From Cognatundibacterium griseum (GTDB taxonomy: Bacteria > Pseudomonadota > Gammaproteobacteria > Burkholderiales > Burkholderiaceae_D), in contig NZ_JACOGC010000007.1 of assembly GCF_014284195.1 (NCBI RefSeq), positions 62,001-126,000 on the forward strand: a stretch of DNA of 64,000 bases, written 5' to 3'. Shown in pieces: positions 2,339 to 58,230 of this stretch. The notes beneath the pieces were generated by a model. That model saw only the letters and a list, made by a program, of their open reading frames with translations. It ran no database searches and was not told the DNA's origin. The position numbers were made by a program, and so were the translations under genes. Positions within the stretch are counted from its first letter, which is position 1. Each line of letters opens with the position of its first letter.

Positions 2339-2384
2339 TTGTCATTTTTTTTGTCATAAACTTGTCATTCAGTCTCATTAAAAT
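2339..2384 (+). promoter_or_regulatory. PHO box and -10 for ppk-sixA
   Basis: Three TTGTCAT copies occur at 2339-2345, 2351-2357 and 2362-2368. The last two, separated by AAAC, form a near-perfect PHO box; the first is 12 bp upstream. TAAAAT (2379-2384) matches the -10 consensus at five of six positions and begins 10 nt after the box. PhoB-dependent expression of polyphosphate kinase is the natural reading. Confidence 0.87.
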
Positions 2385-2428: not shown

Positions 2429-4648
2429 ATGCCAATCCAAGAAATTAAAACTATTCCGCCGGAAACCGAGAATAACACCCCGGCCGAGGAGGATGCACGC
2501 ACGCCCCTCAAAGCGGCCGACCAGCCTCATCAAACAAAACCGCCAGCCTCTGCCACCTCAAAAAATCACACCGACCTGTCTAAAACAGCCATCTTCCTGG
2601 ATCGGGAAATATCCCAGATTGCTTTTAACTGGCGCGTGCTGGCTCAGGCCGAAGACCGCAGCATTCCTTTACTGGAACGGCTGAAATACCTGTGCATTGT
2701 CGGCAGCAACCTCGATGAATTCTTTGAGGTACGGGTTGCCAGTTTGCTGGCACAAAATACCGTCGATGGCGAACTGGTCGAACATCCGGCCTTTCAGGCC
2801 ATGCTGAAACGAATCAGCAACGAGTGCCATCAGTTAACGAAACGTCAATACGAACTGCTGAATCAGGAAATTCTGCCGCAATTGTCCAAAAAGGGCGTGC
2901 ACCTGTTACGCCATTCTGAACGGAATGAAGCCCAGCGTGCCTGGGTGAAGTCTTACTTCGAACGGGAAGTAAGACCTTTGCTGACGCCGATTGGCCTTGA
3001 CCCTGCTCACCCGTTCCCGCAGGTGGTGAACAAAAGTCTGAATTTCATCGTATCCCTTGCGGGCAAGGACGCATTCGGTCGCGGCACGGGCATTGCGATT
3101 GTCAAGGCACCAAGAGTACTTCCACGCATCATCAAACTCCCGGATGAAATTTCTTCAAATGGGCTGTCTTTCTGCCTGCTATCATCAGTCATTCACGCAC
3201 ACATTGAAGACCTGTTCAATGGCCGGGAAGTCATTAACTACTCACAATTCCGGGTAACGCGCGACAGCGATTTATGGGTGGATGAAGAAGAGGTTAAAAA
3301 TTTACGCCAGGCTCTGCAGGGCGAACTGCAGACCCGCCAGTTTGGTGCGGCTGTTCGTCTTGAAGTGGCAAAAAACTGCCCTGAAGATTTGGCCCGCTTC
3401 CTGCTCGAACAATTTACTCTCGACCCTGACCGTTTATATCCGGTCGATGGTCCGGTGAATATGGTCAGACTGGGAGAAATCGTCGATTACGTCAAACAAC
3501 CGAATCTGCGCTTCCCGCCATTTTCTGCCAAAACTGTCGCCAAATATTCCCATAACGACATCTTCACTTTGCTGCGCAAGCAGGATATCTTGCTGCATCA
3601 TCCATTCCAGCCGTTCCAGACAGTCATCGACTTTATCCGCTCTGCCTCGCTCGATCCTAATGTGGTCGCAATTAAACAGACCATTTACAGAACCGGCATG
3701 AACTCCGATCTGATGGAGTCGCTGATCACGGCATCCCGCCTTGGAAAAGAAGTCACTGTCATCGTGGAACTGATGGCCCGTTTTGACGAAGAGGCCAATA
3801 TCAACTGGGCAGACAAACTGCAGCGTGCCGGTGCCCAGGTTGTGTATGGCGTGGTCGGACTGAAAACCCATGCCAAACTGGCACTCGTGATCCGTCGGGA
3901 AGAAGGCGGTATCCTGCGCCATTATGCACATATGGGAACGGGCAACTACCACCCTTCGACAACCCGGTTTTACACCGACTTTGGCCTGCTGACCGCGCAT
4001 CCGGCCATGGCTGCTGAAATTAACGAGGTCTTCATCCACCTGACCGGTCTGACCAAACCCAAGAAATTTGACTACCTGTGGCTGGCGCCATTTGCGCTGC
4101 AGCCCCAAATCATCAAAGCGATCCGCAACGAAGCACGCATTGCCCGCGAAGGCAGACCAGGCCGCATCATCGCCAAGATGAACGCTTTACTGGATGAATC
4201 AGTGATACGCGCCCTGTATGCAGCTTCGGCAGATGGTGTCAAAATTGATCTGATCATACGCGGCGCCTGTGCGCTGCGTCCCGGTGTGCCTGGCTTGTCT
4301 GAAAATATCCGGGTGCGTTCCATCATTGGCCGCTTCCTGGAGCACAGTCGCATCTATTATTTCCGTAATGATCTGGAACACAATGTTTATCTGGCCAGCG
4401 CAGACTGGATGAACCGGAATTTATTCCGCCGCATCGAAGTTGCCTTCCCGGTTTTGGAAAAATCGCTGAAAAAACGCGTCATCACCGAAGGGCTCGACCC
4501 CTACCTCAAAGACAATGTAAATGCCTGGGTACTGGATTCAGAGGGGCATTATGAACGGAAAAAAGCACGCGGCAACCAGTCACGTTTCTGCGCCCAGCAA
4601 TATCTGATGCAACAGCTCGGCTCTCTTTCCGATTCGGATGAAGAATAA
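2429..4648 (+). CDS. ppk: Polyphosphate kinase PPK1
   Basis: Reversibly transfers the ATP gamma-phosphate onto polyphosphate, building the phosphate store. Residues 1-50 are a polar, low-complexity extension. The family then begins at FLDREISQIAFNWRVL and continues with the N, head and C1/C2 domains. KTHAKLALVIRREEGG holds the likely phosphorylated histidine at about residue 481, followed by HYAHMGTGNYH and, later, IRGACALRPGVPG. At 739 residues it is slightly longer than typical PPK1 because of the N-terminus. No strong ribosome site precedes the ATG, so the start is less certain than the family. The stop overlaps the sixA start (TAATG). Confidence 0.96.
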   Translation: MPIQEIKTIPPETENNTPAEEDARTPLKAADQPHQTKPPASATSKNHTDLSKTAIFLDREISQIAFNWRVLAQAEDRSIPLLERLKYLCIVGSNLDEFFEVRVASLLAQNTVDGELVEHPAFQAMLKRISNECHQLTKRQYELLNQEILPQLSKKGVHLLRHSERNEAQRAWVKSYFEREVRPLLTPIGLDPAHPFPQVVNKSLNFIVSLAGKDAFGRGTGIAIVKAPRVLPRIIKLPDEISSNGLSFCLLSSVIHAHIEDLFNGREVINYSQFRVTRDSDLWVDEEEVKNLRQALQGELQTRQFGAAVRLEVAKNCPEDLARFLLEQFTLDPDRLYPVDGPVNMVRLGEIVDYVKQPNLRFPPFSAKTVAKYSHNDIFTLLRKQDILLHHPFQPFQTVIDFIRSASLDPNVVAIKQTIYRTGMNSDLMESLITASRLGKEVTVIVELMARFDEEANINWADKLQRAGAQVVYGVVGLKTHAKLALVIRREEGGILRHYAHMGTGNYHPSTTRFYTDFGLLTAHPAMAAEINEVFIHLTGLTKPKKFDYLWLAPFALQPQIIKAIRNEARIAREGRPGRIIAKMNALLDESVIRALYAASADGVKIDLIIRGACALRPGVPGLSENIRVRSIIGRFLEHSRIYYFRNDLEHNVYLASADWMNRNLFRRIEVAFPVLEKSLKKRVITEGLDPYLKDNVNAWVLDSEGHYERKKARGNQSRFCAQQYLMQQLGSLSDSDEE

Positions 4649-5127
4649 TGGATCTGATACTCTGGCGACATGCAGAAGCTGAACCGGTCAGTGAAACAAT
4701 GACGGATGAATTCCGGAAGCTGACCGGCAAGGGTTTAAGGCAGGCGAATAAAATGGCTTACTGGCTTGACAGCACGCTGCCGGATACCTGCCGCATCCTG
4801 GTCAGCCCGGCTATCCGCACCAGGGATACCGCCGAAGCGCTGGCAGTGCGCGGCCGGAAAATTAAAATCATGCCTGAACTGTCACCGGAAGCGACCGCGA
4901 TCGATATCCTGCGTGCCGCCAACTGGCCCAACAGCCGGGAACCCGTTCTGATCGTGGGACACCAGCCTTACCTTGGACAAGTTGTCGGAGAATTGCTGGA
5001 TCAACCGCTGCAGGAGCACAGTGTCAGAAAAGCCAATGTGTGGTGGATTTCTCAGAAGCAGCGGGATTCGGAAAATCTGATGACCTACCTGAAAGCAATC
5101 ATGTCGCCTGATCTGGTGGTGAAATAA
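4648..5127 (+). CDS. sixA: Phosphohistidine phosphatase SixA
   Basis: A small single-domain histidine phosphatase (159 residues). The catalytic RH sits at residues 7-8 in LILWRHAEAEP; the second half has SPAIRTRDTAEAL, and the second catalytic histidine is in IVGHQPYLG. SixA removes phosphate from phosphohistidine on histidine-phosphotransfer proteins. The start overlaps the ppk stop, so the two are translationally coupled and share the PHO-controlled transcript. A partner role with PPK is suggested only by this arrangement; PPK1 itself works through a phosphohistidine. Confidence 0.9.
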   Translation: MDLILWRHAEAEPVSETMTDEFRKLTGKGLRQANKMAYWLDSTLPDTCRILVSPAIRTRDTAEALAVRGRKIKIMPELSPEATAIDILRAANWPNSREPVLIVGHQPYLGQVVGELLDQPLQEHSVRKANVWWISQKQRDSENLMTYLKAIMSPDLVVK

Positions 5128-5194
5128 GACGTTGACTGATTATAAAAAAAGTGAACTGAGTAACAAAGGCGGTATACAACTCCACCACCCCTGA

Positions 5195-6064
5195 TTACAT
5201 CACCACTTCCGCATCAAGCTCATGCTCGATCTCCTGATCGGCATCCGGTACTTCCATGCGGTTTGCATGCGGTACCACGTCATGCCAGGTAATCAGTCGC
5301 AGCTGACCTTGCGCATCCTCAACCAATGCCGACAGACTTTCAACCCAGTCGCCATCATTGCAATATAAAACGCCGTCAATCTCACGAATTTCAGGTTTAT
5401 GGATGTGACCGCAAATAATGCCATCCACCCCTTTGCGACGCGCCTCTTCTGCCAGGGCATCTTCAAATTGGGTGATATAACTCACCGCATTTTTGACTTT
5501 CAGTTTGAGGTACTGAGACAAAGACCAGTAAGGCAAGCCAGCACGTGCCCGCCACTGATTGAAGATCTGATTAAATTTCAGGATTACCGTATACAGACTG
5601 TCGCCGACATATGCCAGCCATTTGGCACAGGCAATCACACCATCAAACCGGTCACCATGCAGCACCAGCATACGCTTACCATCTGCAGTGGTGTGCACCA
5701 GTTCATCGCGGACTTTGATACCACCAAAATCGAGGTCGATGAACTGTCGGATCGACTCATCGTGATTACCGGGAACAAAAATAACATTCGTTCCCTTTTT
5801 GGCTTTTTTCAGAACGGTCTGCACCACATTGTTATGCGTCTGATCCCAGTACCAGCGCCGCTTTAATTGCCAGCCGTCGATAATATCCCCGACCAGATAC
5901 AGGGTTTCAGATTCTGTCGCTTTTAAAAATTCAAGCAACTTGGTCGCCTGGCAGCCGCTGGTTCCCAGATGCAGATCAGAAATCCAGATCGTCCGGAAGC
6001 GGGTTACTTCCTTTTTTCCGGTTTTATATAATTTCTTGCTCAGGAACTGATCAGCGGCTTTCAC
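5195..6064 (-). CDS. plcP: PlcP-like metallophosphoesterase (putative phospholipase C)
   Basis: A calcineurin-type phosphoesterase of the family often labelled UDP-2,3-diacylglucosamine diphosphatase (LpxH-like). Metal ligands are in ISDLHLG (Asp30, His32), GDIIDGW (Asp60), GNHDE (100-103), LHGDRFD and CGHIHKPE. The YWSLSQYLKLKVKNAV stretch and DGDWVES near the end recall PlcP, the phospholipase C that strips head groups from membrane phospholipids in phosphate-starved Sinorhizobium meliloti. It starts with GTG, 3 nt after the olsB-like stop, with GGGGAA as ribosome site. Co-transcription with an ornithine-lipid acyltransferase behind a PHO box favours PlcP over LpxH. The acidic C-terminal tail is unexplained. 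No signal peptide is seen. Confidence 0.78.
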   Translation of the reverse strand: MKAADQFLSKKLYKTGKKEVTRFRTIWISDLHLGTSGCQATKLLEFLKATESETLYLVGDIIDGWQLKRRWYWDQTHNNVVQTVLKKAKKGTNVIFVPGNHDESIRQFIDLDFGGIKVRDELVHTTADGKRMLVLHGDRFDGVIACAKWLAYVGDSLYTVILKFNQIFNQWRARAGLPYWSLSQYLKLKVKNAVSYITQFEDALAEEARRKGVDGIICGHIHKPEIREIDGVLYCNDGDWVESLSALVEDAQGQLRLITWHDVVPHANRMEVPDADQEIEHELDAEVVM

Positions 6065-6067
6065 GGT

Positions 6068-6829
6068 TTATTCCCCTGTGCCGTAGTGGCGAGCGTAGCG
6101 TCCATCCAGATTGGCGAGAGGTAGCATGACAAACAAGTCAGCACTGTGGAAATCAGGATCCCATGCAGGATCACCGCAAACCCAGGCACCGGCACGCAGA
6201 TAGCCTTTCAGCAGCGGAGGGATTCTGACTTCTACATTACTGGTATCGATTTCATCCAGAGGGAATGGTACGTGCGGCGTCACACGATATTCCAGCGGGC
6301 AAAAATCACGCTCTGTCATACTGCGATAAATCGCCGCCGCGTTTTGCCCGCCATCAGTCAGGCTGATACTGGCGCAGCCGATCAGGTGCGAGCAGCGCTC
6401 ACGGCGCATATAAGCCGCCAGACCAGCCCATAACATCATGATCACAGCACCGCTGCGATAATCCGGGTGAATGCAGGCACGCCCGGCTTCCGCAATGCTG
6501 CCGCGGATATGTTGCAGGCGGGATAAATCAAATTCTGTTTCAGAGTAATAGCGCCCCATCTCACGTGCCGCATTCGGGCCGAGAATACGGTAGGTGCCGA
6601 CTACCTTCAAAGTCTTACTGTCACGCACAATCAGGTGATCGCAGTATGCGTCGAAATCATCCTTATCCAGACCTTCCGGATTCGACAGCGCAGAAAGTCC
6701 CATGCTCTCAATGAACACTTTGTAGCGCAGGCGCTGGACTTCAGTCACTTCTTCCGGGGTGGTTGCCAGACTCAGGTTCAGCTTGGAAAAACTGGGATTC
6801 GCATCTGCTGGTATCGTGAGTAATCGCAT
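6068..6829 (-). CDS. olsB: OlsB-like L-ornithine N-alpha-acyltransferase
   Basis: A GNAT-fold acyltransferase of the OlsB/hemolysin-like group, 253 residues. Landmarks are the early RLRYKVFIESMG, the central LKVVGTYRIL, then RGSIAEAGRACIHPDYRSG and the LIGCASISL segment, which is typical of this group. OlsB acylates ornithine with a 3-hydroxy fatty acid from ACP, the first step to phosphorus-free ornithine lipids; an OlsA acyltransferase, not in this window, would finish. The start is firm (GAGGA 6 nt before the ATG). A triple PHO-type repeat lies 74 nt upstream and plcP follows after 3 nt. Substrate is inferred from family and context. Confidence 0.8.
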   Translation of the reverse strand: MRLLTIPADANPSFSKLNLSLATTPEEVTEVQRLRYKVFIESMGLSALSNPEGLDKDDFDAYCDHLIVRDSKTLKVVGTYRILGPNAAREMGRYYSETEFDLSRLQHIRGSIAEAGRACIHPDYRSGAVIMMLWAGLAAYMRRERCSHLIGCASISLTDGGQNAAAIYRSMTERDFCPLEYRVTPHVPFPLDEIDTSNVEVRIPPLLKGYLRAGAWVCGDPAWDPDFHSADLFVMLPLANLDGRYARHYGTGE

Positions 6830-6902
6830 TCATCGTCCTCTTGTAATCGCTGGATGTCGTTGATTCGACAGGCGAAGAATAGAGGACGATTACTTCAGCA
6901 AG

Positions 6903-6931
6903 ATGACAGTTATATGTCGGTTTTATGACAG
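6903..6931 (-). promoter_or_regulatory. Triple PHO-type repeat before olsB-plcP
   Basis: On the minus strand, CTGTCAT (6931-6925), CCGACAT (6920-6914) and CTGTCAT (6909-6903) are spaced by exactly 11 bp with A/T-rich 4-nt spacers. The outer two are perfect PhoB heptamers. Tandem units at 11-bp spacing are the hallmark of PhoB sites. The -10 is unclear: the expected position holds TAATCG, a poor match, and TATTCT (6881-6876) is about 21 nt away. Confidence 0.8.
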
Positions 6932-7006
6932 GCAAAAATACAACAAAACCGTATCTCTGCAACAAACAGAGAGTGAAGCGGGTTTTCCTGCCCTTCCGTT
7001 ACCGGA

Positions 7007-7435
7007 TTACTTTTCTTTCTTAGGGCGGCCAGCCTTCAGAGGAGCCAGCTCGGCAATGAGTTTCTTTAAGGCAGGAACGTCCGTTTTATTTAGCAAAACC
7101 AGACCCAATCTCAATAACTGGCTTTTTTTCACTTCAATACCGGCTTTCAGGCAGGCTTTCTTCACCTGCCCGAGAACGGCATACTCTGCTTCCGGCATCG
7201 TAAAGCTGTCACGCACCAGTTTGGGTTTACGGATCTTAATGTCGGCAACCACCTCCGGTTTTGCCGGAGTCGCTTTTGTACGTGCGACCGTCTCCGTTTT
7301 ACCAACTCTTGCAGCAGTGCGCACCGGTGCCGCTTTTTTTGCCGCAGTAACGGGGGCCGCTTTTTTAGCGACCGGCTTTTTCGCAGCAGGACTTCTGGTC
7401 GTTACCGGCTCTTTTTTAACTACAGTGGTCGCCAT
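7007..7435 (-). CDS. Lys/Ala/Pro-rich histone-like protein
   Basis: 142 residues. The first half (about residues 1-70) is a low-complexity, very basic Lys-Ala-Pro-Val tract with KKPVAKKAAP-type repeats, like bacterial H1-type or PhaF/AlgP tails. The second half is ordered: RDSFTMPEAEYAVLGQVKK, then KKSQLLRLGLVLLNK, and ends in GRPKKEK, an AT-hook-like basic end. DNA or polyanion binding is likely from composition; the exact role is unknown. The ATG at 7435 has GGAGA 5 nt upstream, better than the TTG at 7447. It sits between two phosphate-related units but has no PHO box of its own. Confidence 0.75.
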   Translation of the reverse strand: MATTVVKKEPVTTRSPAAKKPVAKKAAPVTAAKKAAPVRTAARVGKTETVARTKATPAKPEVVADIKIRKPKLVRDSFTMPEAEYAVLGQVKKACLKAGIEVKKSQLLRLGLVLLNKTDVPALKKLIAELAPLKAGRPKKEK

Positions 7436-7617
7436 GTCAATCTCCAATATAAATTAAAACAATATAAACCATATACGCTTCAGCAATTGACGTAAACAGT
7501 AACGTGATCAGATGACAACGGCATTACGAATACTTCCCGCCAAGCAATCCCTTCCGACATCGTGAGATAATCACGCCTATTTTTCCGCCAACTGCATCGA
7601 ATATTGCCTAAATCATC

Positions 7618-8661
7618 ATGAAATACCTTAATTACATTGCATCATCGCTTCTTATATTTTCCCTCACTGCGCAGGCAGCTGACATCAAAGGTGCCGGATC
7701 CTCTGCCGCCGCACCCTTATATCAAAAATGGGCGGAAGCTTACGCCAAATCCACCGGCGATAAAATCGATTATCAAGCTGTCGGCTCATCTGCCGGTATT
7801 AAAAAGATTAAAGAAGCCAGTATTGACTTTGGTGCCAGCGACGTTGCACTGCCACAGGCAGAATTAAAAAAATCAAAACTGATCCAGTTTCCTTCCGCTA
7901 TTTCAGGTGTGGTGGTGGTCACAAATCTGCCAGGCATCAAGTCTGGCGAGTTGCATATGAACGGTGAACTGCTGGCAGGTATTTTTTCCTCGCGGATCAC
8001 GCAATGGAATGCGGCAGAAATTCAGGCACTGAACCCGAATCTCCGCTTACCGTCCAAGCCCATCGAAGTCATCGTCCGCCAGGATGGTTCTGGGACGACG
8101 TATAACTTTACCGATTATCTCAGCAAGGTGGATAAAACATGGCAAACCGCTTTCGGAAAAAATTTCACCATCAACTGGAATCAGAAACTGAATCAGGTCA
8201 AAGGCAGCAGCACAATTTCTGCCACAGTCAAAAAAACACCTTACTCCATCAGCTATATTGACTACAACTATGTGGTACAGGACAAGCTGGATGCCATCCA
8301 GCTGCAAAACCGTGACGGAAAATTCCTGATGCCGTCAGCGGAAGGATTTTCGACAGCGCTGGCAAACAGCAGCTGGAAAACTCAGGGTAATTTTGAGGAA
8401 ATGCTGACCGACAAGGCCGGCGCAAAATCCTGGCCGATTACCATGGGCACATTCATTATCCTGCCGCAAATCACATCACAGCCTGAAAAAACCAGCGCCA
8501 CCCTGAAGTTCTTCACCTGGGCATTCATGAATGGTGATCGCTTCGTGAACAGCGTCGATTTTGTCCGTTTACCTGATGCGCTGCAAGCGCGTGTTTTCAA
8601 AGAAATGACCACAGTGACCGACACTACAAATAAACCGCTGAACTGGCGCATACAGCCGTAA
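7618..8661 (+). CDS. Diverged orphan PstS-like binding protein
   Basis: 347 residues, the same length as the PstS encoded at 1187-2230 and clearly homologous along its length (ADIKGAGSS, KWAEAY, FGASD, LLAGIF, QWNAAEI, DGSGTT, FTDYLSKV). It has a signal peptide ending at AQA. Several pocket segments differ: ATFP is replaced by SSAAAP, GSGGG by GSSAG, RSDGSGTT by RQDGSGTT, and the late KGNEGV by KGSSTI. No pstCAB lies beside it and no PHO box or good ribosome site was found upstream. It could be a low-affinity or phosphonate/other-oxyanion binder, or a partner sharing the main Pst channel. Confidence 0.85.
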   Translation: MKYLNYIASSLLIFSLTAQAADIKGAGSSAAAPLYQKWAEAYAKSTGDKIDYQAVGSSAGIKKIKEASIDFGASDVALPQAELKKSKLIQFPSAISGVVVVTNLPGIKSGELHMNGELLAGIFSSRITQWNAAEIQALNPNLRLPSKPIEVIVRQDGSGTTYNFTDYLSKVDKTWQTAFGKNFTINWNQKLNQVKGSSTISATVKKTPYSISYIDYNYVVQDKLDAIQLQNRDGKFLMPSAEGFSTALANSSWKTQGNFEEMLTDKAGAKSWPITMGTFIILPQITSQPEKTSATLKFFTWAFMNGDRFVNSVDFVRLPDALQARVFKEMTTVTDTTNKPLNWRIQP

Positions 8662-43120: not shown

Positions 43121-45907
43121 TTAACCGCTGTTTCTGAGGCCTGCCGCAATACCGTTAATCGACAGGTGAATACCGCGTCTGACCCGTTCATCCGGATCGC
43201 CCTGACGATAACGCTGCAGCAATTCGACCTGCACGTGGTTCAGCGGCGACAGATAAGGGAAACGGTTACGGATAGAGCGTGCCAGCAGCGGATTGGCCGC
43301 CAGCAGTTCATCCTGCCCGGAAATCGATTTCAGCACATCGATGGTTGCTTCATGCTCTGCCTGAATCCGCGGGAAAATCCGGTCACGCAATGCCTGGTCT
43401 TTGACCAGCTGGGCATAGCGGCTGGCGATACCGATATCACTCTTGGCAAGCACCATTTCCATATTGGACAACAAGGTGCTGAAAAAAGACCATTGACGGA
43501 ACATCGCCTGCAGAGTCGGCAAACCATCTGCCGGATGCGCAGCCAGGTAACGCCGTACGGCGGTGCCAAAGCCAAACCAGCCCGGCAGCATCAGGCGGCA
43601 CTGCGACCAGCTGAATACCCACGGAATAGCGCGCAGGTCTTCAATGGCGGTGGATTTTTTACGGGAAGCAGGACGGCTGCCGATATTCAGGCCGGCAATT
43701 TCAGAGATCACTGTCGATTCCCAGAAATACTGCTCGAATCCTTCCGTGCCATACACCAGATCACGGTAGGCATGGAATGCGTAATCCGACAGCTCTTCCA
43801 TCACCGACAAAAATACAGCAGGCGGGGCTGGCTCGGTATGCGCCAGCATACTGGCTTCCATCGTGGCAGCAGCCAGCACTTCCAGATTGCGGCGTCCGAC
43901 TTCGGGATTGCCGTATTTTGCCGTAATCACTTCGCCCTGTTCGGTCAGGCGAATCTGTCCCTGAACCGCACCGGCTGGCTGCGCCAGAATGGCCTGGTAG
44001 CTGGGACCGCCGCCGCGACCAACCGAACCGCCGCGGCCATGGAACAAACGCAGGCGCACCTGATGTTTTTTAAAGACTTCCACCAGATCGAGTTCGGCTT
44101 TATACAACTCCCAGCCGGAAGTCAGGAAACCGCCGTCCTTGTTGCTGTCGGAATAGCCGAGCATCACCTCCTGCGCCTGGTCGCGGCTGGCCAGCAGGCG
44201 GGCGTAGGCCGGAATCGCAAACAAACGATCCATCGCTGGCGCACTGTTCTGCAGGTCGCCGATGGTTTCAAACAGCGGGATGATGTTTACATCCAGCCGC
44301 CCTTCTGCCGGATGCAGCAAACCGGATTCTTTCAGCAGCAGCGCCAATTCCAGCATGTCCGACACACCATCGGTCTTGGAGATAATGCAGTTCGGTACCG
44401 CACCGGCGCCATAACGTTGTTTGGCCGTGGCTGCAGCCCGGTAAATCGCGAGTTCGGACTGGGTTTCTTCTGAATACGTCAGGTAAGGCGAAGCCAGCGG
44501 ACGGGCGGAGCTGATTTCCTGAATCAACACGCCGATACGCTGCTCTTCGTTCAATGCCAGATAATCTGTCGCCGGATCGGCGGCCTGCAGTAACTCAGCG
44601 ACCACGCGCTCATGCACATCGGAATTCTGACGCAGATCCAGCGGCGCCAGATAAAAGCCGAATACCCGGACTGCGCGCCGCAGATGACGCAGACGTCCGC
44701 GCGTAATCGCAGCCGAGCCGTTCGCCATCAGAGAGTTGTGAATCACATCCAGGTCTGCTGCGAGCTCTTCCGCCGCACGGTAAGGTGCGGCTTCCCCGCT
44801 CGGCGGGATCGATGGCAACAACCCCAGCAACTGGGTATAAGTCGCTGCCAGGCGGGCGTAAATGCCGCTGATGGCAAGACGGTATGGCTCGTCAGAGCGG
44901 TGCGGCGAATGGTCCGGCGAACGCTCAGCCAGCGCCAGCAACTCATCTGACACTTTCACCAGCAGATTTGCCATCGATAACTGGGAGCCCAGGGTATGCA
45001 GTTCATCCAGATAAAAGCGGAATGCCCGCGTGGACTGCATCGCCAGTGTTTTTTCCAGCACAGTGGCGGTGACGAAAGGATTGCCGTCGCGGTCGCCGCC
45101 AATCCAGCTGCCCATTTTCATAAAGCTGGGCAATTCACGCTGTTTCAGTGTCGGGTCTTTGCTGGCCAGCAGGTCTTCCAGACCGGCATATAGCTGCGGC
45201 AATTCGCGCAGGAAGGTGTAGTCATAAAAACTCAGGCCGTTCTCGACCTCGTCCAGCACCGATAATTTTGAAGTGCGCAGCATGCGGGTCTGCCACAACG
45301 TCAGCACGGCGCGTCCCAGTGCCTCTTCGTTGGCAGCAGATTCTTCCGGTGTGAGCTGCATACGGTCGCGCTCATCGAGCAGGCGTGTAATCACCATCTG
45401 GCAATTCAGGATACTCTTGCGCTGCACTTCGGTCGGATGCGCGGTGAGCACCGGTGCGACCTGCGCCGTCTGGAAAAAATCGAGCAATTGCTGCGTGCTG
45501 TGACCGGTGTTGTACAGGGCTTCAATGGTATGCGCCAGACTGCCGGACCGGGGCGCCGAACCGGCAATCTGATGCGCCCTGGTGCGGCGGATATGATGCT
45601 GGTCTTCCGCCAGATTGACCAGATGCGAAAAATAGCTGAATGCGCGGATCACCTGCGTGGTCTGGTCATTGGTCAGGCTATCGAGCGTATTTTCCAGTTC
45701 GGCACGCGCTGCCTCATCGGCATCGCGGCGGAAACGGATGGAATTTTGCCGGACCTGCTCGATCAGGTCGAACACATCATCGCCATGCTGATTTCTTACC
45801 GTATCGCCTAACAGGCGTCCCAGACGGCGGATATCCTCGCGCAGACTCTGGTCTTTGTCGTCATCTTTGTCGTTCATTTTGAGTGGTGGTTGGAGGTGGG
45901 CATTCAT
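43121..45907 (-). CDS. ppc: Phosphoenolpyruvate carboxylase
   Basis: 928 residues. The catalytic His is in [14 protein letters not shown]; further motifs are [45 protein letters not shown] and, at the C-terminus, [14 protein letters not shown] with the allosteric end Gly. It makes oxaloacetate from PEP and bicarbonate to replenish the citric acid cycle. Start candidates are ATG 45907 and 45877; neither has a strong ribosome site. It is monocistronic on the minus strand. Confidence 0.97.
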
Positions 45908-46020
45908 GCTGACAAAATTCTACGGTAAGTAAGGAAATCGAATGATGAAAATTCTTGCAAGGCAAGCAGTATTTGATCCGATGATGCATCAGGAGAAATA
46001 CCGCCTGCCGGCTCAGATGT

Positions 46021-46040
46021 TCAGCCTGTACGCAGGCTGA
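46021..46040. other. 8-bp hairpin between ppc and pgi
   Basis: TCAGCCTG (46021-46028), loop TACG, CAGGCTGA (46033-46040). It lies about 90 nt after the pgi stop on the minus strand and has no T run. It may mark the pgi mRNA end by a rho-dependent or processing route. Confidence 0.4.
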
Positions 46041-46130
46041 CGGACAGGATGGCGCCCCCGGTAGTGACTCTGGCGCGGTTCCGGCACAAGAGCCGGGTCG
46101 CCGTCAGACATTAGCCCGGGTTAGCCCGGA

Positions 46131-47765
46131 TCAGGCGGCTTTTCTGACTTTCTGGCTGCGTCTGACAGCCTGCAGCAAGCCTTTGGTGGAGCTGTCGTAT
46201 TCTTCTTTCACTGCCGCCGGATCGAGGCTGATCAGCTGCTGCGCCAGTTTTTTGCCGAGTTCCACGCCCCACTGATCGAAAGCGTTGATATCCCAGATCA
46301 CCGACTGCACAAACACCTTGTGTTCGTACAAAGCAATCAGCGCGCCCAGCGAACGCGGGGTCAGCGCATCGAGCAGCAGCGTGGAAGTCGGGCGGTTACC
46401 CTCAAAGACACGCGGAGCCAGGATTTTGTCCGGCAGGTCGCCCAGTTCGGCACGCACTTCTTCCATGCTCTTGCCGAGCGCCATGGCTTTCGATTGCGCA
46501 AAGCAATTTGCCAGCAAGGCCTGATTATGTCCCGGCAAACCGGCATCATCGTCGGCAACCACGATAAAGTCTGTCGGGATGATCGTCGCGCCCTGATGCA
46601 GCAACTGGAAATACGCATGCTGACCATTCGTACCGGCCTCACCAAACAGAATCGCTGACGTTGAATAATCAACGCGCTGCCCTTCGCGGGTCACGGATTT
46701 GCCGTTGCTTTCCATTTCCAGCTGTTGCAGATAGGCCGGCACGCGCGTCATACGCTGGTGATAAGGTGCAATCGACAAGGCTTGCAAACCGAGGAAGTTG
46801 ATATTCCAGACGCCGATCAGCGCCATCAGCACCGGCAGATTCTGTTCCAGCGGCGCCTGGGCAAAATGCAGATCCATCTCGTGCGCGCCGGCCAGCATTT
46901 CTTCAAACCGGTCCATGCCGACATACAGCGCAATCGAAAGGCCGATCGCGCTCCACATCGAATACCGGCCACCCGCCCAGTTCCAGAACGGGAAGACGTT
47001 TTCTTCTGCAATGCCAAATTCCGCCGCTGCAGTCACATTGGTGCTGAGCGCCACGAAATGCTGGCGGATCTGATCTGCCGGACAACCATGCGACAGCATC
47101 CATTCACGCGCCGTGCGGGCATTGGTCAGGGTTTCCATGGTGGTGAAGGTCTTGGATGCGACCACGAACAAGGTCGTCTCCGGATCGGCATTCGCCAGCG
47201 CGTCCGCCACGTGGCGGCCATCGACATTCGAGACAAAATGCAGCGAGAGATTTTTCTGCGACCACGGCGCCAGCGCAATGCATGCCATCTGCGGGCCAAG
47301 ATCAGAGCCGCCGATGCCGATATTCACAATCGTGCGAATCGCCTTGCCGGTATAACCCAGCCAGCGCCCTTCGCGCACGGCATCGCTGAATGCACGCATC
47401 TGCGCCAGCACCTGATGCACGTCGGCGGCGATGTTTTCACCGTTCAGCATGAATTTCTCGCCTTTCGGCAAACGCAGCACGGTATGCAACACGGCACGGT
47501 TTTCAGTGTGGTTGATCGCCTCACCGCGCAGCATGGCGTCACGCCGCGTTTCCACTTCCTGCTGCCGCGCCATTGCCAGCAGATTCAGCTTGGCTGTGGT
47601 GTCGATGCGCTGTTTGGAATAATCGAGCAGGATGCCGCAGGCAGAAGCCGAAAAATGGGTGAAACGCTGCGGATCAGCACGGAACAGCTCTTTCAGGCTG
47701 GGCATGTTGGTAGCGCGCTGCTGCAACAGGCACCAGAGCGGAGTACGGGAAACAGAATTTGCCAT
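46131..47765 (-). CDS. pgi: Glucose-6-phosphate isomerase
   Basis: 544 residues. Signature motifs: TIVNIGIGGSDLGPQM, SNVDGRHVADALANADPETTLFVVASKTFTT, WNWAGGRYSMWSAIG, the catalytic QQLEMESNGKSVTREG and LIALYEHKVFVQSVIWDINAFDQWGVELGK. It interconverts glucose-6-P and fructose-6-P. The start at 47765 is preferred over an in-frame upstream extension. It is 130 nt after eda; the gap has an attenuator-like structure. It links gluconeogenesis to the Entner-Doudoroff genes upstream. Confidence 0.97.
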   Translation of the reverse strand: MANSVSRTPLWCLLQQRATNMPSLKELFRADPQRFTHFSASACGILLDYSKQRIDTTAKLNLLAMARQQEVETRRDAMLRGEAINHTENRAVLHTVLRLPKGEKFMLNGENIAADVHQVLAQMRAFSDAVREGRWLGYTGKAIRTIVNIGIGGSDLGPQMACIALAPWSQKNLSLHFVSNVDGRHVADALANADPETTLFVVASKTFTTMETLTNARTAREWMLSHGCPADQIRQHFVALSTNVTAAAEFGIAEENVFPFWNWAGGRYSMWSAIGLSIALYVGMDRFEEMLAGAHEMDLHFAQAPLEQNLPVLMALIGVWNINFLGLQALSIAPYHQRMTRVPAYLQQLEMESNGKSVTREGQRVDYSTSAILFGEAGTNGQHAYFQLLHQGATIIPTDFIVVADDDAGLPGHNQALLANCFAQSKAMALGKSMEEVRAELGDLPDKILAPRVFEGNRPTSTLLLDALTPRSLGALIALYEHKVFVQSVIWDINAFDQWGVELGKKLAQQLISLDPAAVKEEYDSSTKGLLQAVRRSQKVRKAA

Positions 47766-47821
47766 GATCTTGCTCAGAAGTCGGGATAAGTCGGAACGAC
47801 GGGTCAAATCGGGATTTATCC

Positions 47822-47893
47822 GGGGAGTATCTTTATTTTCCGGCTTGATATCCAGATAAACAAAGGACTATATAAAATACTCCCCCGGAGTAT
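47822..47893 (-). promoter_or_regulatory. Alternative hairpins between eda and pgi
   Basis: On the minus strand, directly after the eda stop, ATACTCC (47893-47887) pairs with GGAGTAT (47883-47877) over a 3-nt loop and is followed by a T-rich stretch, like a weak terminator. Downstream, ATACTCCCC (47830-47822) can pair instead with the GGGGAGTAT of that hairpin (9 bp). The two foldings exclude each other. Confidence 0.45.
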
Positions 47894-47895
47894 AT

Positions 47896-48537
47896 TTATG
47901 CCTTGCCAGCGGCGACGGCCGCTTTTACCAACGTGGCGATAGCATTCCAGTCCCCGCTGTTGATCAGTCCTGCCGGGCACATCCAGGAGCCGCCGACGCA
48001 CAGCACGTTGGACTGCTGCAACAGTGCCGGCGTGGCTTCCACCGTCACGCCGCCGGTCAGGCAAAAACGCACCTCCGGGAAGGGGCCGCCGAGCGCCTTG
48101 GCCATCTTGGTGCCGCCGACCACATCGGAAGGGAACAGTTTGACGACATGAAAGCCATGTTCCAGCGCCAGCATCAGATCACTGGCACCACCGACACCGG
48201 GGAAATACGGTAGACCGGATTCCTGCGCCGCTTTTGCCAGTACTGGCGTGATGCCGGGGCTGATGCCGAATGCCGCACCGCTGGCCTTGACCGCATCGAG
48301 CTGCGCAGCGGTCAGGATCGTACCGACGCCGACAGTCACATCCGGGCAGGCGCGCACCACTTCACGCACCACCGTCATCGCATTCGGTGTGCGCAGCGTG
48401 ATTTCCACCGCAGGCAAACCGTTTTCCGCCAGCGTAGCGACGCACCGGATGGCCTGATCGACGTCATCAGTGACCAAAATCGGCAAAACACGGATCTGTT
48501 CCAGCTGGGTGATGATGCTCTGTTGCGTGTGGCTCAT
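47896..48537 (-). CDS. eda: 2-keto-3-deoxy-6-phosphogluconate aldolase
   Basis: 213 residues. EITLRTPNAM, the catalytic Glu/Lys region (GVGTILTA, FGISPGITP), and LKLFPSDVVGG with the Schiff-base Lys in HVVKLFP, then RFCLTGGV. It splits KDPG into pyruvate and glyceraldehyde-3-P. The ATG at 48537 is preceded by AGAGA. It follows edd by 164 nt. Confidence 0.96.
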   Translation of the reverse strand: MSHTQQSIITQLEQIRVLPILVTDDVDQAIRCVATLAENGLPAVEITLRTPNAMTVVREVVRACPDVTVGVGTILTAAQLDAVKASGAAFGISPGITPVLAKAAQESGLPYFPGVGGASDLMLALEHGFHVVKLFPSDVVGGTKMAKALGGPFPEVRFCLTGGVTVEATPALLQQSNVLCVGGSWMCPAGLINSGDWNAIATLVKAAVAAGKA

Positions 48538-48563
48538 AATGTCTCTCACATAAAAAATAAAAT

Positions 48564-48611
48564 TGCCTGCATCGGGTCAGGCCGGAAATTTCCGAAACCG
48601 CATCGCAGGCA
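48564..48611. other. Inverted repeats between edd and eda
   Basis: TGCCTGC (48564-48570) and GCAGGCA (48605-48611) enclose a perfect 12-bp palindrome, CGGAAATTTCCG (48583-48594). No T run follows, so a processing or stabilising structure is more likely than a terminator. Confidence 0.4.
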
Positions 48612-48701
48612 GCGCCCTGCCGCCTGTCATGCGGGTTTTGCCGATATGCTTACCGATATGTTCTGAATCTTGTGTTCAGTTTTCCCTGCGTGATGCCGCC
48701 G

Positions 48702-50552
48702 TCAGTCGATAAACAGCGTCGATGCGCCATGCTCCGGCGCGGTCACGACCCGGCGCTGCGCCGCAAACAGGTCGCGGCCAAAGCCAAAGGTGTCCTCTTT
48801 GCTGCGTTCGCGCACCGGACGCTGATTCCATTCCTGCTCATCGACCAGCGCACGCAGTTCACCGGTATGCACATTCAGCTCGATCAGATCACCGTCGCGC
48901 ACCTTGCCCAGCGGCCCGCCCTGCGCCACTTCGGGACTGACGTGCAGCGCTGCCGGCACCTTACCGGAAGCGCCGGACATGCGGCCATCCGTCACCAGCG
49001 CCACCTTGTATCCGGCCGACATCAGACTGCCCAGAACCGGCGTGAACTGGTGCAGCTCCGGCATGCCGTTCGCCTGCGGCCCCTGGAAAATCACCACAGC
49101 GACAAAATCCTGATTCAGTTCACCCGCCTTGTAAGCCCTGACCAGCGCATCCTGCGACTCAAACACTTTGGCTGGCGCCCGGATGATCCATGCCTCTTCC
49201 GGCACGGCAGAGGCTTTGACAATCGCACGCCCCAGATTGCCTTGCAGCAGACGCAGGCCACCGGTTGCGGCAAACGGCTCGCTTACATTGCGCACCACGC
49301 TGGTGTCGGTCGATGCGGCAGGCAGCGCTTCCCACTGCACCTGCGCTGAGGCATTCAGCACCGGACGTCCGGTATGGCTGTGCAATCCCTGATCGCCGTA
49401 CACGGTCATCACGTCGCCATGCATCAGTCCGGCTGACAACAATTCACGCATCACAAAAGTCGGGCCGCCTGCATCCTGAAACGCATTCACGTCGGCAGTG
49501 CCGTTCGGATACACGCGGGTCAGCAAAGGCACGACGGAAGACAATTCATCGAAATCCTGCCAGTCAATCAGGATGCCGGCGGCACGCGCCACGGCAATCC
49601 AGTGAATCGTATGATTGGTCGAACCGCCGGTTGCCAGCAGGGCGATCACGGCATTCACGATGGTTTTTTCATTGACCAGACGGCCAATTGGTTTGTAATT
49701 ACCGCTCTGCTCGGTGATTTGCAGCACGCGCTCCACCGCCGCTTCCGTCAATGCGCTGCGCAACGGGTCGGACGGATGCACAAAAGCCGCGCCGGGCAAA
49801 TGCAGTCCCATGGCTTCGAGCAGCATCTGGTTACTGTTGGCAGTGCCGTAAAACGTGCAGGTGCCGGCGCTGTGGTAAGCCGCACTTTCAGCCGCCAGTA
49901 ATTCTTCCTTGGTTGCTTTGCCCTGCGCATAACGTTCGCGCACAGCGGCTTTTTCTTTATTCGATAGACCGGAACCCATCGGTCCGGCCGGAATGAAGAT
50001 CGTCGGCAAATGCCCGAACGCCAGCGCGCCGATCAGCAAACCCGGCACAATCTTGTCGCAGATGCCCAGACATAAGGTCGCATCGAATGCGTCATGCGAT
50101 AAGGCGACAGCAGTGGCCTGCGCAATCACGTCGCGCGAAAACAGCGACAGCTCCATCCCGGGGCGTCCCTGCGTCACACCGTCGCACATCGCAGGCACGG
50201 CACCCGCCACCTGCGCCGTAGCGCCAAAGCGCAAGGCTGTGTCTCGGATCTGCTGCGGATAGGATTCGTAAGGCTGATGTGCTGACAGCATGTCGTTGTA
50301 AGCCGTCACAATGCCGATGTTCGGCTTCTGCGCCTGGTTCAGCCAGATCTTGGCCTTGCTGTCCATCGCCGCATTGGCATGCGCCTGATTAGCGCAGGAC
50401 AGCGATGCACGGCGCGGACCACGTTGCTGCATCTGATCGATACGGGCCAGATAGGCCTGACGCAGAGTCTGGCTGCGTTCGGTAATGCGCCGGGTCACCT
50501 TGTCGATGACAGGATGCAGCGCGGCGGCTGAAAATGAAGAGGATGTCGTCAT
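48702..50552 (-). CDS. edd: 6-phosphogluconate dehydratase
   Basis: 616 residues of the IlvD/Edd family. Iron-sulfur ligands are in [35 protein letters not shown] and the upstream [20 protein letters not shown]. It dehydrates 6-phosphogluconate to KDPG. It differs from the ilvD product encoded at 56218-58095 by this Edd-type MCDGVTQG pattern. AGGTGAG precedes the start. It heads the edd-eda-pgi unit and is divergent from zwf. Confidence 0.96.
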
Positions 50553-50996
50553 AAACTCACCTGTTGCTCCGCAGAGCGAAAGAATAGAAAAACTGCATAG
50601 TGATGCAAACTGCCTTCCTGATCTGTCCGACGCGATACGGCGTCCGGCGACAGCGCTCCCCGAAAGAACATCAAAGAGCTTGCATACGATGACGATAAAG
50701 ATAGCATAAATCCGAAATTTTTCGTAACAAACTTTCAGAATTTTATTTTAATGCTGATTTTTTGTACAAAAACGTCAAATTTACCGTAATGAAACTACAT
50801 TTCTGAAGTTTTTCTGGCATAATGAAATTGCTCGGATTCTTTCAGCGACGGCGTTGAATACCTCCGCCGCACAGGATTCAGGCACAATCAGTCAGGCAGC
50901 AAAAAAACACCATGGCAGCGGCAGAACAGCAGCAAATGCAGTCCGGCGGACGCTTTTGACTGCATCCCCAGAAGCAGAACATATCTCGGAGTCAGC
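50553..50996. other. Divergent edd / zwf control region
   Basis: 444 bp with the regulatory signals for both Entner-Doudoroff units. It contains an A/T-rich core (about 50700-50830), the HexR-like palindrome at 50785-50799, a CATAAT at 50818-50823, and TTGTACAA near 50763. A TATGCT on the minus strand near 50705 could be the edd -10. Confidence 0.6.
50785..50823 (+). promoter_or_regulatory. HexR-like operator overlapping zwf promoter
   Basis: CGTAATGAAACTACA (50785-50799) fits the HexR palindrome pattern TGTARTWWWAYTACA at 13 of 15 positions. CATAAT (50818-50823) is a plausible -10, and the corresponding -35 position overlaps the palindrome. HexR, encoded third in the zwf unit, would thus repress from here until KDPG is present. 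Confidence 0.6.
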
Positions 50997-52457
50997 ATGA
51001 CCACTTTTGTCTTATTCGGCGGCACAGGCGATCTCGCCAAACGCAAACTCATCCCCGCGCTGTACAGCGCGTTTGTGAATGGCAGGCTGGACCAGCATTT
51101 CCAGTTTATCGGCGCCGCCCGTGAAGCTCTGTCGAATGACGAATATCGCCAGCGCGTCAGTGACAGCGTGGCGCACTATGCCTCCAAAGTCACCGGCGGC
51201 AGCCCGGAAAAACTGGCGGCGTTCCTGGAGCTGACCCAATATGCCAAGATCGATGCCCGCGTCCCCGAAGACTTCGAAAAACTCAAAGGCAGCCTGCGCA
51301 CTTCCGATACCAATGCCACACTGTTTTATCTGGCGACCGGCCCGGATATTTTCATCCCGGTGGTGGAGCAATTATCGAAGCACGGTCTGGTTGAAGGCAA
51401 TGCCCGCGTAGTGGTTGAAAAACCCCTCGGCCGCGATGCGCAGTCCGCCAAGGAAATCAATCAGTCGTTGCGCAATTATCTGAATGAAAACCAGATTTAC
51501 CGTATCGACCATTACCTCGGTAAAGAAATGGTGCAGAATCTGCTGGCGCTACGCTTTGCCAATTCTTTCCTCGAACCGCTGTGGAACCGCAAGTGGATTC
51601 AGGATGTGCAGATTTCGATCTCCGAGCAGGTCGGCGTCGAATCGCGCGGCGATTTCTACGACCACACCGGCGCCCTGCGCGACATGGTGCAAAATCACTT
51701 GCTGCAACTGGTATCGATCGTGGCGATGGAGCCGCCAGTGAACGCTAATCCGGATGCGATCCGCGATGAGAAGGTCAAGGTCTTGCGCGCCCTGCACAAA
51801 TTCACACCGGATGAAGTCAGCAAAAAAACAGTGCGCGGCCAGTATCGCGCCGGTGCCGTCGATGGTCAGCCTGTGATTGCCTATCAGGCCGAACCGGGCG
51901 TGCCGCCAGCGTCGCGTACCGAAACTTTTGTCGCGATCCGCGCCGAAATCGATAACTGGCGCTGGGCAGGCGTGCCGTTTTACCTGCGCACAGGCAAACG
52001 CATGGCGAGCCGCTGCGCCGAGATCACGATCAATTTCAAACCGATCCCGTATTCCATTTTCGGGAAAAACCAGGGACCGCTGCGCTCTAACCGGCTGGTG
52101 ATTTCGCTGCAGCCTGAAGAAAGCGTACAACTGTACATGAAAGCCAAAGAGCCGGGCGAAGGCATCCGCCTGTCCGATGTGGCGCTGAATCTGGATTTCG
52201 CAGAAGCATCCAATTCCCGCCGTGTGGAATCTTACGAGCGTCTGCTGCTCGATGCGATGCACGGCGACCTGACGTTGTTCGTCCGCGATGACGAACTCAG
52301 CGCCGCCTGGGCGTGGATAGACCCGATCATGCTGGCCTGGCAGAACGACAGCGAAGGCCTGAAATCGTATATCGCCGGCAGCTGGGGGCCGGCCGCCGCC
52401 AGCTATCTGCTGGCACAGCATGGCGCCGCATGGGGTGAAGAATACGTAGAAGGCTGA
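50997..52457 (+). CDS. zwf: Glucose-6-phosphate 1-dehydrogenase
   Basis: 486 residues. Rossmann motif FVLFGGTGDLAKRKLIPALY, active-site RIDHYLGKEMVQNLLALRFAN, and FYDHTGALRDMVQNH, WRWAGVPFYLRTGKRM. It oxidises glucose-6-P to 6-phosphogluconolactone. GGAG 5 nt before the ATG supports the start. It leads the zwf-pgl-hexR unit. Confidence 0.97.
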   Translation: MTTFVLFGGTGDLAKRKLIPALYSAFVNGRLDQHFQFIGAAREALSNDEYRQRVSDSVAHYASKVTGGSPEKLAAFLELTQYAKIDARVPEDFEKLKGSLRTSDTNATLFYLATGPDIFIPVVEQLSKHGLVEGNARVVVEKPLGRDAQSAKEINQSLRNYLNENQIYRIDHYLGKEMVQNLLALRFANSFLEPLWNRKWIQDVQISISEQVGVESRGDFYDHTGALRDMVQNHLLQLVSIVAMEPPVNANPDAIRDEKVKVLRALHKFTPDEVSKKTVRGQYRAGAVDGQPVIAYQAEPGVPPASRTETFVAIRAEIDNWRWAGVPFYLRTGKRMASRCAEITINFKPIPYSIFGKNQGPLRSNRLVISLQPEESVQLYMKAKEPGEGIRLSDVALNLDFAEASNSRRVESYERLLLDAMHGDLTLFVRDDELSAAWAWIDPIMLAWQNDSEGLKSYIAGSWGPAAASYLLAQHGAAWGEEYVEG

Positions 52458-52495
52458 ACGCGGCGTTTCAGCCCCGTCATACAGAAAAGAAAAAC

Positions 52496-53173
52496 ATGAG
52501 ACCTATCCAATATCATACCTTCGACAATTTTGCGGCACTGAGCGAAGCGCTCAGCCAGCAGTGGGCGGAAATCATCCGCAGCACGCCGGGCGGCAGCAGC
52601 TTTGCTCTCGCCGGCGGCACGACCCCGGCACCGGTGTATCAGCGGCTCGATGAATTGCTGACGCATATGGATCAGCGCAATCCGATCAAACTGGTCGCCA
52701 CCGATGAGCGCTGGGTCGCCGACGAAGATCAGCAGAGCAATGAAGGCCTGTTCCGCCGCTGCCTGCAGAAATCCGCCCGCGACAAACGCTGGCAGCTGGT
52801 CTCGTTAAAAAATGCATCCTCCACGCCGGAAGTCGCCACCGAAGCGATTGATGCGCGCCTCAATGCGCAGCTGCCGCAGGCATTCAGCGCCATCCTGCTC
52901 GGCATGGGCGCTGACGGTCATATCGCTTCGCTGTTTCCCGGCGCGCCGGTGCAGCATGATGACCTGACCTGTCTGGCGGCGGTGCATCCGCAGACCCGGC
53001 AAAGCCGCATGTCGCTGTCGCTGCCGCGCCTGCTCAATACGCAGCGCATCTGGCTGGTGATTACCGGTCAGGAAAAGCGCGATGTGCTGGAACATGCCGT
53101 CGAAGCCAATCTGCCGGTTGCTGCCCTGCTGCGCGAAGCCGGATGCGATATCGATGTTTTCTGGTGCCCGTAA
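52496..53173 (+). CDS. pgl: 6-phosphogluconolactonase
   Basis: 225 residues. FALAGGTTPAPVYQRL, TDERWVADEDQQSNEG, ILLGMGADGHIASLFPGAP and VITGQEKRDVLEHAV are the lactonase landmarks. It hydrolyses 6-phosphogluconolactone to 6-phosphogluconate. It lies 38 nt after zwf. Confidence 0.95.
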   Translation: MRPIQYHTFDNFAALSEALSQQWAEIIRSTPGGSSFALAGGTTPAPVYQRLDELLTHMDQRNPIKLVATDERWVADEDQQSNEGLFRRCLQKSARDKRWQLVSLKNASSTPEVATEAIDARLNAQLPQAFSAILLGMGADGHIASLFPGAPVQHDDLTCLAAVHPQTRQSRMSLSLPRLLNTQRIWLVITGQEKRDVLEHAVEANLPVAALLREAGCDIDVFWCP

Positions 53174-53274
53174 CAGTGTCTTTCAGCTGGCTTATGACGC
53201 ACAATACGGTTTTGCCCGGCGCATCACCTGATCCGTGTTGAGCGTCATTCACTCTGCCCACATCTGCACACATT

Positions 53275-54168: not shown

Positions 54169-54325
54169 AGCCGGATACGGCACGCTGCCATCAATAAATT
54201 TCCGGTAAGAAATAATCTACTCAATTGATGTAGTAATTATTTCACATCTTTGTGATTCCTCTGGGTATCGCGGTGGCATTCGGGTAATACTGAACACATG
54301 TTAACTTCAGGAATGAGTTCAGCGA

Positions 54326-55162: not shown

Positions 55163-55248
55163 TCAGGACGCCGGCAATATCCACGGGGCAAACATCATCA
55201 CCTGCTGACTGATGCTTCCAGTCAAACCAGGGATTGCTCAGAAACACC

Positions 55249-55890
55249 TTACAGTTCCGGCGACAGCATGTGACCGAGCTTGCTGATTTTGGTGTTCAGG
55301 TAACGGTTATTGTAGGGATTGCGCTGGATGATCAGCGGCACGTGCTCACTGATCGTGACTTTCAGGCCTTCCATCGCGGCCAGCTTGCGCGGATTGTTCG
55401 TCATCAGCCGCAATGACTGTATGCCCAGATGCCGCAGCATCGGGTCGCACAGGCTGTAATCGCGCAGGTCTGCCGCAAAGCCGAGCCGCTGATTGGCCTC
55501 CACCGTATCGGCGCCGTCGTCCTGCAGGTGATAGGCGCGGACTTTATTCAGTAAGCCGATGCCCCGTCCTTCCTGTCGCAGATACAGCAAGGCGCCGCGC
55601 CCTTCTTCCGCAATTTTCCGCAACGCCATTTCCAGCTGTGGCCCGCAGTCGCAACGCTGGCTGAACAGTGCATCGCCGGTCAGACATTCGGAATGAATCC
55701 GTGCCAGCACTGGCTGGCCGTTCGCCACATCGCCCAGTGTCAGCGCAATATGCTCTTTGCCGGTTGCCGGTTCAAAAAAAGCATGCATACGGAAATTGGC
55801 CCAGGTGGTAGGCAGATTGCAGGAATCGACGTATTCAAGTGCCGCGGTTGCAGGAGTTGCAGGCTCGACAGGCGGGGTGTTGCTGGACAT
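55249..55890 (-). CDS. ribA: GTP cyclohydrolase II
   Basis: 213 residues. The zinc cysteines are in [42 protein letters not shown] holds the active-site Arg, and [15 protein letters not shown] closes the domain. It opens GTP in the first committed step to riboflavin. It stands alone without ribB; an FMN riboswitch was not seen upstream. Confidence 0.96.
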
Positions 55891-58095: not shown

Positions 58096-58230
58096 GATTC
58101 ACTCCTGATAATGGTCAGCGCAGGCTGGCCAGGAAAAATGAGAAAGCATCAGCTTGCATTGCTTGTTTTGATATGTCAAATATCATTTAAGAAGAAAATT
58201 AAGTTGCATTGCATATTAATCGCCGCAAAT

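Follow-up and report, generated by a model that had tools for sequence, protein, structure and literature searches.

The locus analyzed here raises the question whether an olsB-like acyltransferase gene and an adjacent metallophosphoesterase gene, the latter carrying the automatic label LpxH, form a PhoB-controlled unit for membrane lipid replacement at phosphate starvation, and, if so, what becomes of the diacylglycerol that the phosphoesterase would release. The locus was considered within a 64-kb stretch of DNA (below, the window), which belongs to a genome of 3.61 Mb in 19 contigs; in all counts, "the genus" is Undibacterium.

Arrangement and conservation of the gene pair

On the minus strand, a Pho box is followed by the olsB-like gene and then by the plcP-like gene (Table 1); the interval 5195–6931 contains exactly the pair and the box. 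The ORFs and start codons agree with the first-pass annotation, which had described an OlsB-like ORF and, 3 nt on, a phosphoesterase starting with GTG; an AGGGGA stretch is located 7 nt upstream of this start codon. Also as claimed there, pstS and ppk are found in the neighbourhood. The PhoU, PhoB, and PhoR genes lie immediately left of the window, each above its curated cut-off, together with pstA and pstB, named by eye, and a second pstS is situated beside the unit, away from the pst operon.

Table 1. Features of the olsB–plcP region and of the btaA locus of the same genome (window coordinates unless a locus is named).
Feature	Position	Strand	Basis and remarks
pstC	21–1100	−	named by eye; follows pstS
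pstS, phosphate-binding protein	1187–2236	−	453 bits, cut-off 339
Pho-box-like two-repeat site upstream of pstS	2292–2309	−	2 mismatches
Pho-box-like two-repeat site upstream of ppk	2351–2368	+	2 mismatches
ppk, polyphosphate kinase	2429–4648	+	54% to gene annotated ppk1
sixA-like histidine phosphatase	4648–5127	+	convergent with plcP; 72.3 bits, just below cut-off 74.5
PlcP-type metallophosphoesterase, 289 aa	5195–6064	−	GTG start; identity, motifs, tree
OlsB-like amino acid N-acyltransferase, 253 aa	6068–6829	−	ATG start; PF13444, best NCBIfam matches are OlsB models
Pho box, three CTGTCAT-type 7-mers	6903–6931	−	11-bp period; ends 73 nt before olsB ATG
146-aa Lys/Ala/Pro-rich protein upstream of olsB	7007–7447	−	many relatives have a homologue upstream of olsB
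second pstS	7618–8661	+	TIGR00975, 320 bits, cut-off 205
Pho-boxed btaA, then 375-aa protein	L197:6476–8939		own genome (C10), outside the window

The 146-aa neighbour of olsB matches nothing in Pfam or NCBIfam at 0.01, and its single-sequence model is poor (pLDDT 58.7); it may not be part of the olsB–plcP unit. Its C-terminal region might, on visual inspection, be a ribbon–helix–helix. The G+C content is 0.58–0.60 across positions 44001–64000 of the window and 0.49–0.52 elsewhere in it.

Among 195 genomes of the family, 144 contain olsB and 98 contain plcP, and 66 of the latter have both in tandem, that is, olsB followed by plcP on the same strand with a gap under 300; for the genomes of the genus in this draw, the count is 11/11. 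The remaining plcP-positive genomes have the two genes within 8 kb in a different order or orientation (15), on different contigs (13), or far apart (1), or have no olsB match (3). Besides the one in the window, the 40 tandem loci that we examined comprise 37 others from the 66 of the family and two from another family of the order. In Microvirga sp. VF16 (NZ_CP069355.1:1140180–1141533), a piece of plcP and olsB lie within ~260 bp, facing each other.

The literature searched describes no olsB–plcP tandem, which is weak evidence of absence, as most subscription journals are outside its coverage; olsB beside plcP is not described in the available parts of PMC5082522, PMC9239053, PMC3972451, PMC9804370, PMC7779409, and PMC8528852. 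The word olsB is absent from the main text of PMC4796936, where the six plcP contexts, as given in the available part, name btaAB and glycosyltransferases. The accessible text of PMC7814305 calls the olsB context usually conserved (data not shown).

Identity of the two enzymes

LpxH and the window phosphoesterase belong to the same metallophosphoesterase superfamily, and the automatic labels and the best NCBIfam matches agree in pointing to LpxH; were the protein indeed an LpxH paralogue of lipid A synthesis, it would stand behind olsB by chance. The match scores, however, are far under the cut-offs: 54 bits (cut-off 134) and 51.7 bits (TIGR01854, cut-off 190.35). A separate LpxH gene, whose absence would in the first-pass annotation have counted against PlcP, is encoded elsewhere in the genome (C1:48972–49622, 258 bits, cut-off 190). 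When the LpxH model was applied to 60 genomes of the phylum, 15 had a match above the cut-off (198–368 bits), and all other matches scored at most 51 bits.

The window protein is 49.8% identical to PlcP of S. meliloti, 51–53% to PlcP of P. aeruginosa, and 22–24% to LpxH. The two PlcP proteins served as anchors; for S. meliloti, this is the record with a single match, and for P. aeruginosa, the record with a glycosyltransferase gene behind it, equivalent to the PA3219–PA3218 arrangement (available part of PMC8528852). They are 46.6% identical to each other, the value given for PA3219 and S. meliloti PlcP in the same source, as far as accessible, being 46%; from identity and arrangement, the anchors are probably the experimentally tested PlcP proteins. 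On the LpxH models, they score similarly low to the window protein (55 and 45 bits for P. aeruginosa, 38 and 39 bits for S. meliloti). Both homologues are annotated 'UDP-2,3-diacylglucosamine diphosphatase', and the automatic label hides PlcP here in the way that the first-pass annotation had suggested.

The motifs of the window protein, SDLHLG (29), GDIID (59), GNHD (99), HGDRFD (136), and GHIH (219), are as in the anchors. In a set of 107 sequences, where some genes are counted twice because they are present in two loci, GNHD is seen in 88 of 91 PlcP-type sequences (the exceptions are one incomplete sequence, one without both motifs, and one with GNRD), and GNRD in 15 of 16 LpxH-type sequences, the remaining one being incomplete. 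The phylogenetic check proposed in the first-pass annotation groups the phosphoesterase with PlcP: in a tree of 66 rows chosen from the 107, built by a quick search and having long branches on the LpxH side, 13 LpxH rows are set apart from the 53 others with SH-aLRT 100, and the window row and both anchors are among the 53. The scores below the cut-offs, the genome's own LpxH elsewhere, the separate branch, GNHD in place of GNRD, and the low identity lead us to reject LpxH; the paralogue explanation is extremely improbable, and the phosphoesterase is, by its sequence, of the PlcP type. As is known for the family, it would cleave phospholipid to diacylglycerol.

The assignment of the acyltransferase is less specific. 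The protein matches PF13444 (Acetyltransf_5) with 125 bits, the only other match to this family in the genome scoring 23.6 bits, and among the NCBIfam models it matches two for OlsB best, at 158 and 155 bits, where the cut-offs are 320 and 350; these models, with names ending in BRUA and RHOCB, may be narrow lineage models. Since both scores are under the cut-offs, we call the protein OlsB-like only, and do not fix its amino acid. The same low scores would fit an enzyme that acylates lysine, glutamine, or glycine, in which case the phosphorus-free lipid would not be ornithine lipid. Several aminolipid substrates are reported in A. baumannii, where OlsB gives two aminolipids labelled OL and LL (available part of PMC11828411), LL being taken here as lysine lipid. 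Such a substrate is nevertheless quite unlikely, as the OlsB models are by far the best, compared to 59 bits for OlsF and 15 bits for the glycine enzyme GlsB, and as Paraburkholderia xenovorans, in which a Pho box is predicted before olsB, swaps phospholipid for ornithine lipids (accessible part of PMC7814305, data not shown there).

The candidate for OlsA (L067, contig C13) is not linked to the pair. It scores 123 and 102 bits, versus OlsA cut-offs of 300. In two other families of the order, olsB is directly followed by an acyltransferase gene; of the genome's five PF01553 proteins, the candidate is the best match to its product (39% and 44%). OlsB alone yields lyso-ornithine lipid, and OlsA is required to complete the lipid. 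The candidate has no Pho box, its best site having 5 mismatches; likewise, for Acinetobacter, olsA is reported to have no Pho box before it (PMC11828411, available part).

The Pho box and the predicted transcription unit

A triple CTGTCAT-type repeat with an 11-bp period had been claimed upstream of olsB, and the motif scan returns here a three-repeat Pho box, CTGTCAT-AAAA-CCGACAT-ATAA-CTGTCAT, with 2 mismatches to the consensus; it is the only three-repeat match with up to 3 mismatches within the window. A chance repeat is ruled out, as none of 100 dinucleotide shuffles yields a three-repeat match, and a box before olsB (up to 3 mismatches, within 250 nt) is present in 28 of the 40 tandem loci, compared to 1.3% of shuffles. 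At eight of these 28 loci the box occupies the identical place, 73 nt before the olsB start. Within the genus, 10 of 11 tandem loci have the box; the 12 tandem loci with no box at this threshold include the Undibacterium locus L110.

Directly before plcP, a box is seen in one tandem locus of 40, compared to 0.7% of shuffles. In a set of 47 plcP loci, a separate box near the plcP start was found in 11 of 28 non-tandem and in none of 19 tandem loci. Taken with the boxes before olsB in the tandem loci, this shows that the Pho box goes with the transcription unit. The promoter scan found no sigma-70 promoter-like site between the box and olsB; weak terminator-like patterns occur inside plcP on its own strand (5950–5932 and 5997–5983).

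Shorter, two-repeat sites are present upstream of pstS and ppk (Table 1). The genome-wide two-repeat scan with 3 mismatches gave 405 matches, versus 216 for the reversed pattern, and is too loose to list the regulon; hence, we relied only on individual sites close to genes of interest. One Pho-box-like site (L201:3961–3978, contig C15) lies upstream of a gene for a CpdB-like 2',3'-cyclic-nucleotide phosphodiesterase (4126–6204). Another, with 1 mismatch (L198:6010–6027, contig C10), is located between a KAS III (FabH-like) gene (6127–7272) and the next gene (3296–5881), the site and both flanking genes all being on the minus strand.

Both parts of the pair have Pho-boxed relatives. Pho boxes before olsB are known in Acinetobacter and in Burkholderia sensu lato, where they were predicted in 21 of 43 genomes (PMC7814305), and Pho boxes in plcP clusters have been described as well (PMC4796936), both as far as these sources are available. 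In contrast to the arrangement found here, plcP beside olsB is not mentioned for these bacteria in the accessible parts of PMC7814305 and PMC11828411.

The unit has the features of a Pho regulon member, namely a box upstream and both PhoB and PhoR in the genome; PhoB binding and co-transcription of the pair would be expected from the established biology of these families. Given the directly established sequences, arrangement, Pho box, conservation, and phylogeny, the olsB-like gene and plcP very likely form a PhoB-controlled two-gene unit for membrane lipid replacement at phosphate starvation in Undibacterium. At low phosphate, PhoR–PhoB would become active, PhoB would bind the three-repeat box, and the two genes would be transcribed together. 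PlcP would cut phospholipids, releasing the phosphate-bearing head group and leaving diacylglycerol; a 3-hydroxy fatty acid would be attached by the OlsB-like enzyme to ornithine or a related amino acid; and the unlinked OlsA candidate would complete the phosphorus-free aminolipid. The enzyme activities and lipid products of this scheme, including aminolipid synthesis by OlsB and OlsA and the use of diacylglycerol by BtaA, are those expected from what is established for the families. The first-pass annotation had placed both remodelling steps in one unit under PhoB. The pair does stand behind a Pho box; the consecutive order of the steps does not hold, since the diacylglycerol from PlcP does not become ornithine lipid, and OlsB needs OlsA. 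The two genes would thus serve the same response as parallel arms and would not be successive steps of a pathway.

Possible outlets for diacylglycerol and the btaA–GNAT pair

Diacylglycerol would not be used by OlsB, and in most tandem relatives examined the outlet role may be taken by a diacylglycerol glycosyltransferase-like gene behind plcP. Outside the genus, a co-oriented glycosyltransferase-like gene comes after plcP in 27 of 29 tandem loci, one of which, L119, is also the source of the GT28 query; within the genus, the count is 0/11. The genes are Agt-like GT4, GT28/MGDG-synthase-like, or both, and the two loci without them are L122 and L249. Judged by homology, these glycosyltransferases would act on diacylglycerol. 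In the 28 non-tandem plcP loci, GT4 is seen within 200 nt behind plcP in 13, and a GT28-like gene in five. In the window's own genome, the P. aeruginosa Agt1 query has no match (a search lacking a positive control), and the GT4 matches number three, all of them weak, at most 27.4 bits at a cut-off of 26.4.

The lack of a glycosyltransferase behind plcP in all 11 Undibacterium loci and the results for the own genome would suit a PlcP that serves phosphate salvage only, with the diacylglycerol re-phosphorylated by a kinase and having no dedicated outlet, and with the btaA genes unrelated. Also in line with salvage are the lack of a BtaB-like gene within the btaA loci and the one Undibacterium-type locus lacking the GNAT partner, both detailed below. 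Against it, btaA has a Pho box in nearly all Undibacterium-type loci, and one Thiomicrorhabdus genome has the btaA–GNAT pair directly followed by plcP. We consider salvage alone unlikely. In the preferred scheme, the diacylglycerol in Undibacterium would most likely go to BtaA, encoded separately behind its own Pho box, for the addition of a homoserine head group; a GNAT-like partner, its chemistry left unspecified, would then act on the product.

The BtaA homologue (PF11899) is encoded in the same genome outside the window and scores 333 bits (cut-off 28.2); its gene has a Pho box (2 mismatches) whose end lies 45 nt upstream of it. The protein is 41.5% identical to the product of a DUF3419 gene of R. 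leguminosarum that precedes a methyltransferase gene. With the equivalently placed S. meliloti region, which carries no annotation and was recovered as two pieces, the protein shares 42% identity; its nearest relative is that of U. oligocarboniphilum (97%). A close-relative scan with this BtaA yielded 20 loci, 17 of them in Undibacterium records, two in Burkholderiales MAGs, and one in Thiomicrorhabdus; the placement of the genome in Undibacterium is based on these relatives. A box (up to 3 mismatches, within 300 nt) precedes btaA in 17 of 18 complete Undibacterium-type loci (L205–L222), a count made without a shuffle control. No BtaB-like methyltransferase was matched in the 20 loci with flanks up to 5 kb (E 1e-5, two rhizobial BtaB-like queries).

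Instead, a GNAT-like protein of 375 aa is encoded downstream of btaA in 18 of 19 Undibacterium-type loci and in Thiomicrorhabdus; the locus L221 (6221–6512) has btaA with no adjoining partner, and the partner copies at L216:6229–7284 and L217:6227–7291 lack segments common to the others, which disfavours a strict need for the partner. In Thiomicrorhabdus sp. zzn3 (L224:4941–8255), btaA, the 375-aa homologue, and plcP stand in tandem, an order that is, at the sequence level, a separate link between the btaA–GNAT pair and PlcP. More distant homologues of the 375-aa protein occur in other gene sets; hence, btaA is not the only gene with which the family is associated. On a plasmid of Rhizobium rhododendri (NZ_CP117268.1:649113–651255), a distant 375-aa homologue (27%) lies beside a distant DUF3419 homologue (25%) on the same strand.

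For this protein, the homologue from U. oligocarboniphilum was modelled (pLDDT 88.8); the model is nearest to the catalytic domains of MprF and aminoacyl-phosphatidylglycerol synthases (TM-score by query length 0.43–0.51) and to FemX (0.48–0.52). According to the model, the partner is a duplicated GNAT fold, MprF/FemX-like at modest similarity, and its substrate is not fixed by the fold. A bolder reading is that the diacylglycerol glycosyltransferase was dropped from the Undibacterium olsB–plcP cassette, and that diacylglycerol from PlcP is instead passed to Pho-controlled BtaA and then to the duplicated-GNAT, MprF/FemX-like protein, acting as a finisher in place of BtaB, to give an undescribed phosphorus-free lipid, such as aminoacylated or acylated diacylglyceryl-homoserine. 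The two partner copies lacking otherwise conserved segments lower the odds of this reading, and we regard it as possible, albeit on balance doubtful.

Of the known systems, the plcP–agt operons of P. aeruginosa (PA3219–PA3218), Methylosinus trichosporium OB3b, and Pelagibacter likewise combine plcP and a lipid gene in one apparent operon used at low phosphate; here, in contrast, the partner is an olsB-like gene before plcP, and no agt is found behind plcP in Undibacterium. The parts of the S. meliloti response, with PlcP, DGTS, and ornithine lipid, have homologues in the genome studied, namely PlcP, OlsB (31% identical), BtaA (42%), and the OlsA candidate. However, olsB of S. meliloti is 1.6 Mb away from plcP, and behind its btaA-like stretch stands a methyltransferase gene, not a GNAT-like one. 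In the literature searched, btaA, 'betaine lipid', and GNAT were not found together. The enzyme families themselves are known; it is in the btaA–GNAT pair that new chemistry could lie.

In the arrangement described here, one apparent operon brings together phospholipid breakdown and the synthesis of a phosphorus-free substitute. The comparison suggests that the diacylglycerol outlet, whether GT4 Agt-like, GT28-like, or BtaA, is exchanged between genera. The combination of a Pho box, an olsB-like gene, and plcP provides a sequence marker of a phosphate-starvation response that is often automatically labelled as lipid A synthesis, and in Undibacterium it points to possibly new lipid chemistry, within reach of mass spectrometry.
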